From positions 5,084,001 through 5,148,000 of the forward strand of contig NZ_CP063458.1 in NCBI RefSeq assembly GCF_015169395.1: 64,000 bases of DNA, read 5' to 3'. Shown here one piece after another: positions 47,016-51,956 of this stretch (its first letter is position 1; each line of letters opens with the position of its first letter). The position numbers and the translations under genes are program-made. This DNA is from Humisphaera borealis. GTDB lineage: Bacteria > Planctomycetota > Phycisphaerae > Tepidisphaerales > Tepidisphaeraceae. The notes below the pieces were generated by a model. That model was not told the DNA's origin and ran no database searches. It saw nothing but the letters and a program-made list of their open reading frames with translations.

Positions 47016-48290
47016 ATGTCTAAGCGTCGCGTCGTCATTACGGGATTGGGCGTGGTCACCTCGCTCGGCGAAGTCGTCGATCAGGTGTGGGATGCGCTCT
47101 GCGCCGGCAAGAGCGGCATCGTCCCGATTCGCCGATGGGATTGCAGCACCTATCCGACTCGTTTCGGCGGAGAGTGCTACGATTTCGATCTGACGAAGTA
47201 CAAGGATGCCTACGCCCGGCATCGCCGCAGCGATGAAGACGAGATCCCCCGCAACGGTCGGCTCGACCGATTCGCCCAGTTCGGCATCGCCGCGTCCATC
47301 TCGGCCGCGAACGACGCCAACATCGACTTCAAGACCGAAGACACGACGCGATGCGGCGTGATTATCGGCACGGGCATCGGCGGCATCGAAACCATCGAAG
47401 AGCAGAACAAGATCCTGGTTTCTCGCGGCGTGAGCCGGGTCAGTCCGTTTACCGTGCCTCGCCTGATGGCCAACGCTGCCAGTGGCAACGTTTCCATCCT
47501 GTTCCGCCTGAATGGCCCCAATACCTGTGTCTCCACCGCGTGCGCCACCGGCAGTAATGCCATCGGTGATGCCGGCCGGCTGATTCAGTACGGCCTGGCC
47601 GATGTCATGATCGCCGGCGGGGCGGAAGCAGCACTCAGCTCCCTGGGTATGTCTACGTTTGTCGCGGCCAGGGCACTGTCGACCCGCAACGAAGAGCCCA
47701 CGCTTGCCAGCCGTCCCTGGGACAAGGATCGCGACGGTTTCGTGCAGGCCGAAGGCGCGGGCGTCGTCATCCTTGAAGAGTACGAACACGCCAGGGCCCG
47801 CGGTGCCCGTATCTACGCCGAACTCGTCGGCTACGGCATGAGCGGCGACGGCTACCACATCACCGCCCCCGACAGCGAAGGTCGCGGCGCGGCCGCCGCC
47901 ATGAAGCTGGCATTGAAAGATGCCGGCGTCTCTGGCGAAGTCGTCGATTACATCAACGCCCACGGCACCAGCACCGAACTGGGCGATCTGGCAGAAACCA
48001 AGGCGGTCAAGACCACCTTCGGCGAACACGCCTACAAGATGGCGCTGAGCTCTACCAAGAGCCAGCTCGGCCATTCGCTCGGTGCGAGTGGCGGCATGGA
48101 AGCGGTGTTCTCTTCGCTGTCCGTCAGCCGCAACCTGATTCCGCCGACGATCAATCTCGAAAACCCCAGCCCCGATTGCGACCTCGACTACACCCCGCTC
48201 AAGGCAAGGGATCGCAAGATCACCTATGCCATGAGCAACAGCTTCGGGTTCGGCGGGCACAATGCGTCGCTGCTGTTCAAGAAGATCTAG
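47016..48290 (+). CDS. fabF: 3-oxoacyl-ACP synthase II
   Basis: 424-residue condensing enzyme that elongates acyl-ACP. Catalytic Cys176 in 'CVSTACATGSNAIGDAG', the two His in 'YINAHGTSTELGD' and 'KSQLGHSLGASGG', and the end 'SNSFGFGGHNASLLFKKI' are conserved. The N-terminal part has a longer loop (about residues 60-82, KYKDAYARHRRSDEDEIPRN) than E. coli FabF. It closes the fab cluster; a strong terminator follows 35 bp after the stop. Confidence 0.96.
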   Translation: MSKRRVVITGLGVVTSLGEVVDQVWDALCAGKSGIVPIRRWDCSTYPTRFGGECYDFDLTKYKDAYARHRRSDEDEIPRNGRLDRFAQFGIAASISAANDANIDFKTEDTTRCGVIIGTGIGGIETIEEQNKILVSRGVSRVSPFTVPRLMANAASGNVSILFRLNGPNTCVSTACATGSNAIGDAGRLIQYGLADVMIAGGAEAALSSLGMSTFVAARALSTRNEEPTLASRPWDKDRDGFVQAEGAGVVILEEYEHARARGARIYAELVGYGMSGDGYHITAPDSEGRGAAAAMKLALKDAGVSGEVVDYINAHGTSTELGDLAETKAVKTTFGEHAYKMALSSTKSQLGHSLGASGGMEAVFSSLSVSRNLIPPTINLENPSPDCDLDYTPLKARDRKITYAMSNSFGFGGHNASLLFKKI

Positions 48291-48325
48291 TACTTGCCGA
48301 CGTTGCACACCGCTTAAACCAAACG

Positions 48326-48352
48326 CCCACGGACAGCCGTCCGTGGGTTTTT
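48326..48352 (+). terminator. Intrinsic terminator after fabF
   Basis: A perfect 9-bp stem (CCCACGGAC/GTCCGTGGG) with a 4-nt loop AGCC, followed at once by five T. This is a textbook Rho-independent terminator for the fatty-acid cluster. Confidence 0.88.
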
Positions 48353-48474: not shown

Positions 48475-49620
48475 ATGGGCATGAGTGCCACACCCGAAGC
48501 GACGCCCACGATGCTCGAACGTGCCGCGCCGCAGTCCGCTTCCGGCCCGGCTCACAGCGCTGGCTCGCAGCCCCAGCCGCTACGGCTGACATTGCAGCCA
48601 GGTGCGGCCGCGAAGCAGATCGTCCCGTGGCTCTCGCGTGGGATCGCGATCCGCAAGCATCGCCTGCGCGACCTGACAGACCTCGACAAGGCACGATCAG
48701 AGAAGAAGGCCTGGGTGGCCGCCTATACCGATCTGTTATCGAAGCTCTTTGACGGGCCTGCCGTCGCCGAGGCGTGCAACGATTGGATCGGTCGGTTGCT
48801 CCCCGAGTATGCACCGCTTGGCCTTGTCATCGAGCAGTTCTATGAAGAGATGGACCATCGCCTGCGGCGGTTGCAGGCCGTGGTGGATCACCTGGAGGAC
48901 ATGGCCGAGGAATCGCCGCCCGTGGAGCCCGCCAGCGGAACAGCGCAGCCGTCCGCCGGACAGGCTGCGGCAAAGAAGGACGAACCCAAGGGCAAATCGC
49001 TCAACTGGGCCCGGCTGTTCCCGACGGCCGAAGAGCTGACCGGTCAAGCGTTGCCCCTGTCGGAACAAGCTGTGCCAAAGTCCGCACACACCGACGGCCC
49101 GAACGGAAGGGCCGCAGAAGTGACTTCATCCGCGAGCGGCTCCGGCGGTGCGGCTCACGCCAAATCACCCGAACACAAGGCCCATGCCGCACCGGGAACG
49201 CTTCCCCCGGTCGTCAAACCGGTCGGCCTCCTGCTCGTGCAGTCGGCGGACGATGCAAAACCGATTTGTGAGTTTCTGACCGACCTTGCGGTAACGCCGC
49301 GCGTGGTCCTGATGGCCGACGCTAAACCAAACGACCCCGAATTGCTGATGAGCGGGACGACAGCGCCGGCGTTCGCGCTGATCTGGCCGTGCGAGGGAGA
49401 CGCCGTGACTGCAAACGCATCGCGCTTCCAATTCCAGCTCGGATTCCTCGTCGGCCGGCTTGGGCTGTCGCGCGTCTGCCTGATGCAGACGGTCGGCAAA
49501 CCCGCCGAGTCGTCGCCGGTGCCGGCGATCACGCTAGATGCCCACGGCGGCTGGCAACTGCCCCTGGCCCGGACCCTCAAGCGGGCGGGTGTTGCGGTGG
49601 ATTTGAACCGGCTGTGCTAA
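48475..49620 (+). CDS. Protein with C-terminal TIR-like nucleotide-binding domain, expected catalytic Glu absent
   Basis: About 381 residues from ATG 48475 (48481 also possible). The N-terminal half is helical ('WLSRGIAIRKHRLRDLTDLD', 'EEMDHRLRRLQAVVDHLEDM'), followed by a Ser/Ala/Pro-rich linker. The C-terminal 115 residues match the predicted nucleotide-binding TIR-like family (PF10137 type): 'VGLLLVQSADDAKPICEFLT', 'AFALIWPCEGD', 'FQFQLGFLVGRLGLSRVCLM' and 'GGWQLPLARTLKRAGVAVDL'. In that family the third motif normally reads FELG, whose Glu is the likely NADase residue; here it is FQLG. So it may bind but not cleave nucleotides. No known defence partner is adjacent. Confidence 0.65.
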   Translation: MGMSATPEATPTMLERAAPQSASGPAHSAGSQPQPLRLTLQPGAAAKQIVPWLSRGIAIRKHRLRDLTDLDKARSEKKAWVAAYTDLLSKLFDGPAVAEACNDWIGRLLPEYAPLGLVIEQFYEEMDHRLRRLQAVVDHLEDMAEESPPVEPASGTAQPSAGQAAAKKDEPKGKSLNWARLFPTAEELTGQALPLSEQAVPKSAHTDGPNGRAAEVTSSASGSGGAAHAKSPEHKAHAAPGTLPPVVKPVGLLLVQSADDAKPICEFLTDLAVTPRVVLMADAKPNDPELLMSGTTAPAFALIWPCEGDAVTANASRFQFQLGFLVGRLGLSRVCLMQTVGKPAESSPVPAITLDAHGGWQLPLARTLKRAGVAVDLNRLC

Positions 49621-49694: not shown

Positions 49695-50087
49695 TCACGA
49701 TGGGTCGTTGTCGGCCCGCTCACCTGACAGCAAACTGGGCAGCAGTTCAACAAAGCGGCTCCTGGCCATGATCTTGTCGATACCGGCTTCTCGAGCGGCT
49801 CTGGCAGTGTCGGCGTCGACGTGAGAGACGAAACCGATCGCGAATCGATCGGGTACGTCCGATTTCCAGCGTCCGGCGGCGGGAATCGCGCCTTCCTGGT
49901 TCAGGTCCACAATCAACCGCCGTCCGGCCACAACTGCGAGCCGCGCCGGATCGCGGATATGCACAAGGGCCACGCCGGCGTTCTTCGCCGCTGCGACGAC
50001 GCGCGACCCGAGAATCAGATCCCGAATCAGGATGACGAGGTCTGACTTCGGGGCCGGTGTTGGTTCGCTGGTTTGCACGGCCGGCAT
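49695..50087 (-). CDS. Degenerate response-regulator receiver-like protein
   Basis: 130 residues with the alternating strand/helix plan of a receiver domain: 'LVILIRDLILGSRVVAAAKN', then 'GRRLIVDLNQEGAIPAA' with an Asp at the phospho-acceptor position, 'RFAIGFVSHVDADTARAARE' and 'AGIDKIMARSRFVELLPSLL'. The usual acidic pair is reduced to one Asp and the conserved Lys before Pro is missing, so phosphorylation is doubtful. Standalone, no kinase adjacent. Convergent with the TIR-like gene, divergent from motA. Confidence 0.6.
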   Translation of the reverse strand: MPAVQTSEPTPAPKSDLVILIRDLILGSRVVAAAKNAGVALVHIRDPARLAVVAGRRLIVDLNQEGAIPAAGRWKSDVPDRFAIGFVSHVDADTARAAREAGIDKIMARSRFVELLPSLLSGERADNDPS

Positions 50088-50267
50088 TCTACGTCAAGGT
50101 GAAGTTAACCGCCGCCAGGCCAGAGCCGGGCGATGCTCCGATAATCTTTCACTTTCAGCCCAGTTGCTGGCCGATGAAGAGGCCTAAGGGACATCAGCGC
50201 GGTTCGCGCCCATCCCTCGTTCAGTGGCCATGGAATGGCCCTGCCATCGTTCACGGATGACAACTCC

Positions 50268-51047
50268 ATGGATCTGTCCACCGTCATCGGTTTCGTCCTC
50301 ACCTGGGGCATCATCATCTTCTCGATGCACCACGCATCGCACGGTGCGCTGGGTGCCTACATCAAGCCGACGGAAATGCTGCTGGTCTTCGGCGGGTCGC
50401 TCGGCGCGGCACTGCTGTCGATGCCGCTGCACAACATCACCGGTTTCGTCGGCAACCTCAAAAAGTGGATCTTCAACAAGGACGCCCACGTCGAGCACAC
50501 CATCAAGGAAATGGTGAACTTCGCCGAGGTTGCCCGTCGCGATGGCGTACTGGCGCTGGAAACGGTCGCCCGCGAAAACCCCGACCCGTTCCTCCGCCGC
50601 GGCTTGCAGCTCACGATCGACGGCACCGATCCCGAGATGATCGAACGCATCATGCGGATCGAGATCGAGGCGATGCAGGAACGCCACAAGCACGGCAAAC
50701 ACTTATTCCACACGCTGGCGAAGTTCGGCCCCGGTTTCGGCCTGATGGCGACGCTCATCGCCCAGGTGGCGATGTTCAAGAGTCTCGGCGGCGACGCGAG
50801 CGTGATCGGTAACGCGCTAGCGATCGCACTGACCGGAACGCTCTACGGCTGCATGCTCCAGAACCTGATCGCCGGACCGATCGCCGAGAAGCTCGCACTC
50901 CGCAGCCAGGAAGAAACGTTCGCGAAGGAAATCGTTCTGCAGGGCGTCCTCAGTATTCAGGCCGGAAACAATCCGCGCGTCGTTGAAATGCAGTTGCTGA
51001 GCTTCCTGAGCAGCAAACAACAGGCGGCGATGCCGAAAGCCGCATAA
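50268..51047 (+). CDS. motA: MotA-type flagellar motor stator protein
   Basis: 259 residues from ATG 50268. Four membrane helices: 'VIGFVLTWGIIIFSM', 'MLLVFGGSLGAALLSM', 'FGPGFGLMATLIAQVAMF' and 'IALTGTLYGCMLQNLIAGPI'. The cytoplasmic loop 'FLRRGLQLTIDGTDPEMI' and the C-terminal 'ILQGVLSIQAGNNPRVVEMQ' type end follow MotA. It makes the proton channel of the flagellar stator with MotB, encoded next. An upstream ATG (50235) adds 11 residues with no benefit. No other flagellar gene is in the window. The gap to motB holds a heptamer repeat. Confidence 0.9.
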   Translation: MDLSTVIGFVLTWGIIIFSMHHASHGALGAYIKPTEMLLVFGGSLGAALLSMPLHNITGFVGNLKKWIFNKDAHVEHTIKEMVNFAEVARRDGVLALETVARENPDPFLRRGLQLTIDGTDPEMIERIMRIEIEAMQERHKHGKHLFHTLAKFGPGFGLMATLIAQVAMFKSLGGDASVIGNALAIALTGTLYGCMLQNLIAGPIAEKLALRSQEETFAKEIVLQGVLSIQAGNNPRVVEMQLLSFLSSKQQAAMPKAA

Positions 51048-51049
51048 GG

Positions 51050-51126
51050 AGTAGGCAGTAGGCAGTAAGCGGTACGCAGAAAAGACATGCTCTTTACTGC
51101 GTGCTGCTTACTGCCTACTGCCTACT
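51050..51126. repeat. Facing heptamer arrays between motA and motB (family D)
   Basis: The left array GTAGGCA/GTAGGCA/GTAAGCG/GTACGCA (51051-51078) faces the right array ACTGCGT/GCTGCTT and two exact GCCTACT-type units (51094-51126). It fills nearly the entire gap. Confidence 0.82.
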
Positions 51127-51134
51127 GACCTCTC

Positions 51135-51956
51135 ATGGCCAAGAAAAAGTGTCCCGAACCCGAAGAATGCCCCGAGTGGATCTTCACCTTCGCCGACCTC
51201 GTCATGCTCATGATGGGGTTCTTCGTGATTCTATGGGTGCTTAAGCCCAATCCCGGCAAGAGCGGCGAAGGGGAGATGGACCCCAAGTGGATGGAGGTCG
51301 TCGCCAAGATCCGTGAGGCGTTCAAGCATGTGCCTGATCCGGACAGTAAGGATCCGATCGACATGTACATGCTGATGAAGAAAATCGAACAGATCGAGCC
51401 GCCGTTGAAAGGGCCCGGCGCAGGCGCAGAGACGAAGGACCGCCCGCAAGGCGCCAACGGCTTTGAACCGCTTGTGATGAACGTCCGGCCGGGCGCTCAC
51501 GTCGCCGTCGGTGGCCGCCTCGGCTTCGAAAAGGGTGACGCGAGCATGACGGCCGATACCACCCGCGTCGCCGACGAGATCATCAAGCGTATTCGCGGGC
51601 ATCGAAACATCCTCCAGGTCAAAGGGCATGTGTCGCTGGACGACTTTGCCGATTCGGCCGAGCCGCAGAAGTTCATGGACCTGTCGCTACGCCGGGCACA
51701 GGTGATCGCCGACTACTTTGTCGCCAAGGGGATCTCGCCCGACGTGGTTCGCGTACAGGGTTGCAGCACGTTCGAGCCGGTGGTGCAGCGGGCGTACGGC
51801 GAAGACGCGTTGTCGCTGAACCGCCGGGTGGAGGTCGAGGTAAGCAACACGCCGGTCCCCGACCGCCAGGGTTCGGGAGCGGCGGGCGTCGTCAAGCCGC
51901 TGTCGGTGACGAGTGAGCCGGCGCTCAGCAATGCACCGGTGGGCCCGGCACACTAG
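51135..51956 (+). CDS. motB: MotB-type stator protein with OmpA-like peptidoglycan-binding domain
   Basis: 273 residues. A short N-terminus and one membrane helix with the proton-accepting Asp ('FTFADLVMLMMGFFVILWVL', Asp in FADL) are followed by a periplasmic plug/linker (about 45-130). The OmpA-like domain comes next ('ADEIIKRIRGHRNILQVKGH', 'LSLRRAQVIADYFVAKGISP', 'LSLNRRVEVEV'), with its NRRVE motif. It anchors the stator to peptidoglycan. Gene order motA-motB is standard. The tail is Pro/Ser-rich. Confidence 0.9.
   Translation: MAKKKCPEPEECPEWIFTFADLVMLMMGFFVILWVLKPNPGKSGEGEMDPKWMEVVAKIREAFKHVPDPDSKDPIDMYMLMKKIEQIEPPLKGPGAGAETKDRPQGANGFEPLVMNVRPGAHVAVGGRLGFEKGDASMTADTTRVADEIIKRIRGHRNILQVKGHVSLDDFADSAEPQKFMDLSLRRAQVIADYFVAKGISPDVVRVQGCSTFEPVVQRAYGEDALSLNRRVEVEVSNTPVPDRQGSGAAGVVKPLSVTSEPALSNAPVGPAH

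Follow-up and report, generated by a model that had tools for sequence, protein, structure and literature searches.

A TIR-like protein with a degenerate NAD pocket and a retained two-domain architecture in the planctomycete Humisphaera borealis

The window, a stretch of 64,000 nucleotides from the Humisphaera borealis contig NZ_CP063458.1 (positions 5,084,001 to 5,148,000), carries a gene for a TIR-like protein (hereafter the window protein) whose neighbors are fab and mot genes, with no defense or phage region (Table 1). The gene is present in one copy in the complete 7.19-Mb genome, and its GC content at codon positions 1, 2, and 3 (0.69, 0.52, and 0.75) is typical of coding sequences. Translation could start at either ATG 48475 or ATG 48481, the latter being favored by the homologs, whose N-termini read “MS...”. 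Membership in the fab operon was rejected as unlikely, because a terminator intervenes and the homologs are found near truA instead: the two full-length homologs from the genomes G011 and G023 have a truA neighborhood in common, whereas the window gene is flanked by fabF and motA/motB. Terminator-like sites in the region are not clearly more frequent than expected from shuffled sequences; the stem of this one is near-perfect. On the other side, an open reading frame of 130 aa (49695-50087, minus strand) is convergent with the gene; it has no family match at E <0.01 and reads like a degenerate receiver-type domain.

Table 1. Features of the window gene and its surroundings
Feature	Coordinates	Strand	Details and evidence
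fabF (beta-ketoacyl-ACP synthase II), upstream neighbor	47016..48290	+	
Intrinsic terminator in the gap between fabF and the window gene	48325..48348	+	10-bp stem, 4-nt loop, T run
Putative pseudo-TIR protein gene	48475..49620	+	381 aa by translation; alternative start ATG 48481
N-terminal four-helix domain	48580..48924	+	residues 36-150; model helices, profile matches to intact PF10137 proteins
Linker, low complexity	48925..49215	+	residues 151-247; model mostly disordered here, pLDDT <50 over 188-247
Degenerate PF10137-type TIR domain and C-terminal helix	49216..49617	+	residues 248-381; model, structure matches, PDC-S35
Former R-x-N-xxx-E-x-G active-site segment (A315 S316 R317 F318 Q319 F320 Q321 L322 G323)	49417..49443	+	alignment, SfSTING mapping
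C-terminal tail, DAHGGWQLPLARTLKRAGVAVDLNRL	49537..49614	+	residues 355-380; most conserved part of the family
motA-like and motB-like genes, downstream neighbors	50235..51956	+	

The motifs singled out in the original prediction are present in the translation, FQLGFLVGRLG as residues 320-330 and GGWQLPLARTLKRAG as residues 358-372, and so is the Gln that replaces the Glu of FELG (Q321, codon CAG). A sequencing error at this codon was ruled out, as many further pocket columns are changed and homologs also lack the Glu. In the structural model of the protein, whose pTM is low (0.44), the two domains are separated by a long disordered linker; its ∼97 aa make it much longer than in the homologs and intact relatives. 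For the TIR-like domain (residues 248-381), the model shows, at moderate to high confidence, alternating strands and helices of a TIR-type alpha/beta fold, and TIR chains head its structure matches with Z scores of 10.5-11.8. The best solved match is the SPARTA TIR (Z 11.8, rmsd 3.2, 120 aligned residues), and the TIR-STING structures 9lmq (Z 10.9, rmsd 3.3, 125 aligned) and 7un8 (Z 10.5) score similarly. One receiver domain reaches 11.5, so that the fold alone cannot decide the TIR identity; by sequence, response-regulator receiver families gave no match to the window protein, although receiver folds score similarly to TIR. In addition, the alignment used for the model contained TIR sequences, and the predicted fold is therefore not fully independent evidence. 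Foldseek searches gave no usable match in BFVD and no match at E ≤0.001 in the PDB. The model of an intact relative, L086, matched SfSTING with a Z score of 16.1 (rmsd 2.7, 128 aligned), far above the rest, followed by TIRs and nucleoside hydrolases.

With respect to sequence families, the window protein itself had no match in NCBIfam and none of note in Pfam, where it falls below the curated cut-off of PF10137 (CAP12/Pycsar TIR; CAP12-PCTIR_TIR). The PADLOC model PDC-S35 matches its residues 320-380 (model positions 215-277) at an E value of 7.7e-10, and its matches to the homologs cover more of the model. PF10137 matches the homolog from G023 at 1.9e-7 (31.5 bits versus the cut-off of 24.7), the one from G011 at 1.3e-4, and a TIR-only homolog from G003 at 0.004, so the window protein is homologous to PF10137 although it lies below the family threshold. 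As the window protein has no Pfam match of its own, this assignment rests on the intermediate homologs, the PADLOC match, and the predicted fold; judging from these matches, the resemblance to a PF10137-type TIR is not due to chance.

The N-terminal half, which the original prediction described as a helical domain but left unnamed, is indeed helical in the model (helices 42-60, 67-91, 96-102, and 115-146, with pLDDT mostly 83-97 over this block) and corresponds to the N-domain that precedes the TIR in intact two-domain PF10137 proteins. Run against a small set, the family N-domain profile matches the intact PF10137 proteins L052 (1.6e-13), L086 (2.3e-8), L054 (9.5e-4), and L087 (0.0015), and a genome-wide search with it retrieved the N-terminus of a G708 protein (E 1.3e-9) that has this N-domain in the same frame as a TIR domain (1.8e-22). 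Helices 20-38, 45-69, 74-80, and 93-116 of the L086 model agree with those of the window model in pattern and spacing. Given this shared N-domain and the matching helices, the window protein descends at full length from the intact two-domain proteins or is their sister, and does not represent a novel domain fusion. The PDC-S35 models gave no hit over the N-terminal domain of the window protein; the PDC-S35 architecture, a helical domain preceding the TIR, is nonetheless recognizable from the homology of the N-domain to that of the intact relatives.

In SfSTING, the PF10137 pocket is formed by R78, N80, E84, hydrophobic residues, and S10, with D110 provided by the other subunit (PMC9402430). 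In the register fixed by alignment to 7un8, R78, N80, E84, and D110 correspond to A315, R317, Q321, and E345 of the window protein, in which nearly all NAD-pocket residues are lost. The HG of canonical relatives is changed to Q256/S257 (H256Q/G257S), the T-x-x-E-K and R-x-R-Q-N motifs of the PDC-S35 type are lost, and the CC-loop hairpin, represented by strands 206-208 and 218-220 in the L086 model, is absent from the window model. Among the PF10137 proteins surveyed in the phylum, the Asn and Glu of the N-xxx-E-x-G motif are both invariant (41 of 41), and the weaker matches with an alignable second half keep them as well (L157 is doubtful). Two frames, L150 (G600) and L151 (G667), end before the Asn/Glu motif and hence fall outside that reading; they contain only the first half of the PF10137 domain, stop before the Glu helix, and are possibly broken genes. 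The Gln is thus not a general feature of such proteins, nor even of the window protein's own family, in which the Glu column holds Q, K, E, or A and the Asn column four residues earlier holds R, N, a gap, or Y.

With conservation defined as agreement in at least 85% of the intact relatives, 2 of 18 conserved polar columns are kept in the window protein, versus 15 of 18 conserved nonpolar columns when hydrophobic swaps are allowed (Fisher p 3e-5); the G011 and G023 homologs behave similarly (p 0.002). The G023 homolog retains the Glu (FELG) but lacks the R-x-N segment, so that activity can hardly be judged from the Glu by itself. The earlier view that the protein is not an effector enzyme finds stronger support than the single Gln offered, as the entire NAD pocket is degenerate and not the Glu position alone. 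Reverting the Gln alone to Glu should not restore activity, and NAD cleavage has very probably been lost from the window protein. In alphaC of SfSTING, on the other hand, the dimer residues F83, F85, L87, and L89 correspond to F320, L322, F324, and V326, all hydrophobic, although these may have been retained merely for folding. The CC-loop hairpin contributes to the SfSTING dimer too, and the ancestral dimer may therefore be weakened in the window protein.

The family is small: three full-length members, one TIR-only member, and one fragment at a contig end, all but the window's own coming from draft genomes. The full-length homologs belong to the same order and are ∼32% identical (G011, 315 aa, with FKLG; G023, 299 aa); a whole-genome search found full-length members in 3 of the 26 genomes of the order, a patchy distribution. 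The TIR-only member (L006 1495-2211, minus strand, in G003) reads FALG instead of FELG and has no recognizable N-domain, and a search beside it for the lost N-domain found nothing. Searches across the class (397 genomes) and the phylum (392 genomes) yielded no additional full-length member. When the window protein alone was used to scan the genomes of GTDB 220, no relative emerged, and a scan with the family alignment returned only the two homolog genomes already known; viral contigs yielded no copy of the family. The four family members form one clade in the tree (support 96/88) with long branches, and the family is lineage-specific, kept in a single planctomycete lineage. Canonical PF10137 proteins are absent from the complete H. 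borealis genome, and no other PF10137 protein scores above the cut-off in the two homolog-bearing drafts. The H. borealis genome yielded a single TIR_2-type protein (L166 499-1929, minus strand; G000:C1, ∼2944435), which belongs to a different family and has a TIR/SEFIR-like domain at its N-terminus, followed by a helical region. Another genome of the same bacterial family, G024, carries a canonical PF10137 protein (L007 1492-2127, minus strand) whose match begins at profile position 35, its first strand and BB-loop region seemingly missing or replaced.

Conservation within the family is concentrated outside the TIR core. In the last 37 residues, 16 are identical in all three full-length members, as compared with 10 of 79 aligned residues of the TIR core, where Arg333 is the only invariant polar residue. 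Identity between members at codon position 2 is 0.63-0.86 in the N-domain and tail (0.70-0.86 in the tail; chance ∼0.25) and weaker, 0.43-0.57, in the TIR core, while that at position 3 in the N-domain and tail is 0.43-0.52 versus 0.30-0.38 by chance. These values and the invariant tail residues point to a maintained protein with a more freely evolving TIR core, and speak for maintenance by selection.

Taken together, the gene probably encodes a TIR pseudoenzyme that derives from a two-domain PDC-S35/PF10137 immune effector and acts noncatalytically through assembly or partner binding. The ancestor would have been a bacterial immune effector combining an N-terminal four-helix sensor or regulatory domain with a C-terminal TIR NADase. 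With the loss of nearly all NAD pocket residues and of the CC-loop hairpin, NAD cleavage would have ceased; the hydrophobic framework, the hydrophobic alphaC face, the C-terminal helix, and the two-domain architecture are retained. The N-domain may still recognize something, and the TIR-like domain could relay this recognition by self-pairing or partner binding, with alphaC and the conserved basic tail as contact sites; action of this kind, with the N-domain as the recognizing part, seems reasonably likely. Such a scaffold role, in which the protein would work as noncatalytic TIR adaptors do, is the most likely mechanism; no conserved operon points to a partner.

The original prediction favored either a nucleotide sensor or a decoy. 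If the catalytic acid alone were lost, the TIR-like pocket would be expected to go on binding NAD or a cyclic ADP-ribose product while leaving it uncleaved, and the TIR fold is indeed retained; however, the residues that hold the nucleotide are lost too, namely the equivalents of SfSTING R78, N80, and the S10 region (A315, R317, and H256Q/G257S) and the T-E-K region, and no polar core residue apart from Arg333 is family-invariant, making this reading improbable. A protein acting as a decoy or dominant-negative antagonist, by entering active TIR filaments and blocking them, would be expected to keep the alphaC interface positions and lose the catalytic residues, as observed in the mapping to SfSTING (PMC9402430). 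Such a role is nevertheless quite unlikely, given the absence of a canonical PF10137 protein to block in its own complete genome or of another one above the cut-off in the two homolog drafts, the fab and mot surroundings, and the lack of viral-contig copies; if an antagonist at all, the protein may act against incoming elements rather than a co-resident effector.

The long branches, the weakly conserved TIR core, and the patchy distribution would all suit a functionless, decaying remnant of a defense gene. This is unlikely in view of the intact open frames in separate genera at ∼32% identity, the invariant tail residues, and the codon position 2 identities far above chance, with position 3 much nearer to it. 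Finally, the protein could have remained an enzyme by relying on a different acidic residue, such as E345, which occupies the SfSTING D110 position, or E307; TIR groups with a rare Glu exist, and the presence of the Glu does not always track activity (PMC7075850). Yet in SfSTING, D110 reaches into the pocket of the partner subunit to complete it alongside E84, without taking the place of E84; E307 is not conserved in the homologs, and the Arg and Asn partners are lost. When the three full-length members are compared over the TIR core (residues 248-344), not a single Asp, Glu, His, or Asn proves invariant. The suggestion of another Glu filling the site thus found no support, and continued catalysis is highly improbable.

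TIR domains play two roles, that of enzyme and that of assembly platform, and how the one converts into the other is debated; the noncatalytic TIR adaptors (MyD88, TLRs, and plant RRS1) are thought to act by TIR-TIR assembly. If the window protein is a noncatalytic TIR pseudoenzyme, one tentative possibility is that this planctomycete lineage co-opted a phage-defense TIR effector for a cellular role, with selection on the sensor domain and assembly surface while the NAD pocket was dismantled. Such co-option would provide a bacterial counterpart of the animal and plant noncatalytic TIR adaptors, and a PF10137 lineage with the pocket gone but the partner domain and tail kept would let assembly in the absence of catalysis be examined in a natural system. 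Among open-license papers, none was found to describe a dismantled pocket in a bacterial PF10137 lineage, and none to mention PDC-S35. According to a recent preprint (PMC13142454), amoebae acquired CAP12-type TIRs from bacteria, and one of these, TirD, was toxic in yeast independently of its putative catalytic Glu. For annotation, the PDC-S35 model would label the window gene a defense system, although the effector chemistry is very likely absent.

Among known systems, the window protein resembles PDC-S35, a single-gene phage-defense candidate in PADLOC, in its C-terminal match and in the N-domain of the intact two-domain relatives, but it lacks the NAD pocket, the T-x-x-E-K and R-x-R-Q-N motifs, the catalytic Glu, and a defense neighborhood; its genomic surroundings lend no weight to an anti-phage activity. 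With the Cap12/TIR-STING proteins of CBASS (SfSTING 7un8 and 9lmq), it has the TIR fold and the alphaC hydrophobic positions in common; it has no STING domain, however, carries Q, R, and A in place of E84, N80, and R78, and has the CC-loop hairpin deleted. The Pycsar effector PycTIR has a PF10137-type TIR, as does this family, and is matched by the G023 homolog at 2e-5, whereas the match of the window protein is weak (0.06) and no Pycsar cyclase neighbor was seen. In its presumed way of working it resembles MyD88, TLRs, and plant RRS1, which have a TIR fold without NADase chemistry, although by sequence the window protein belongs to a different TIR family.
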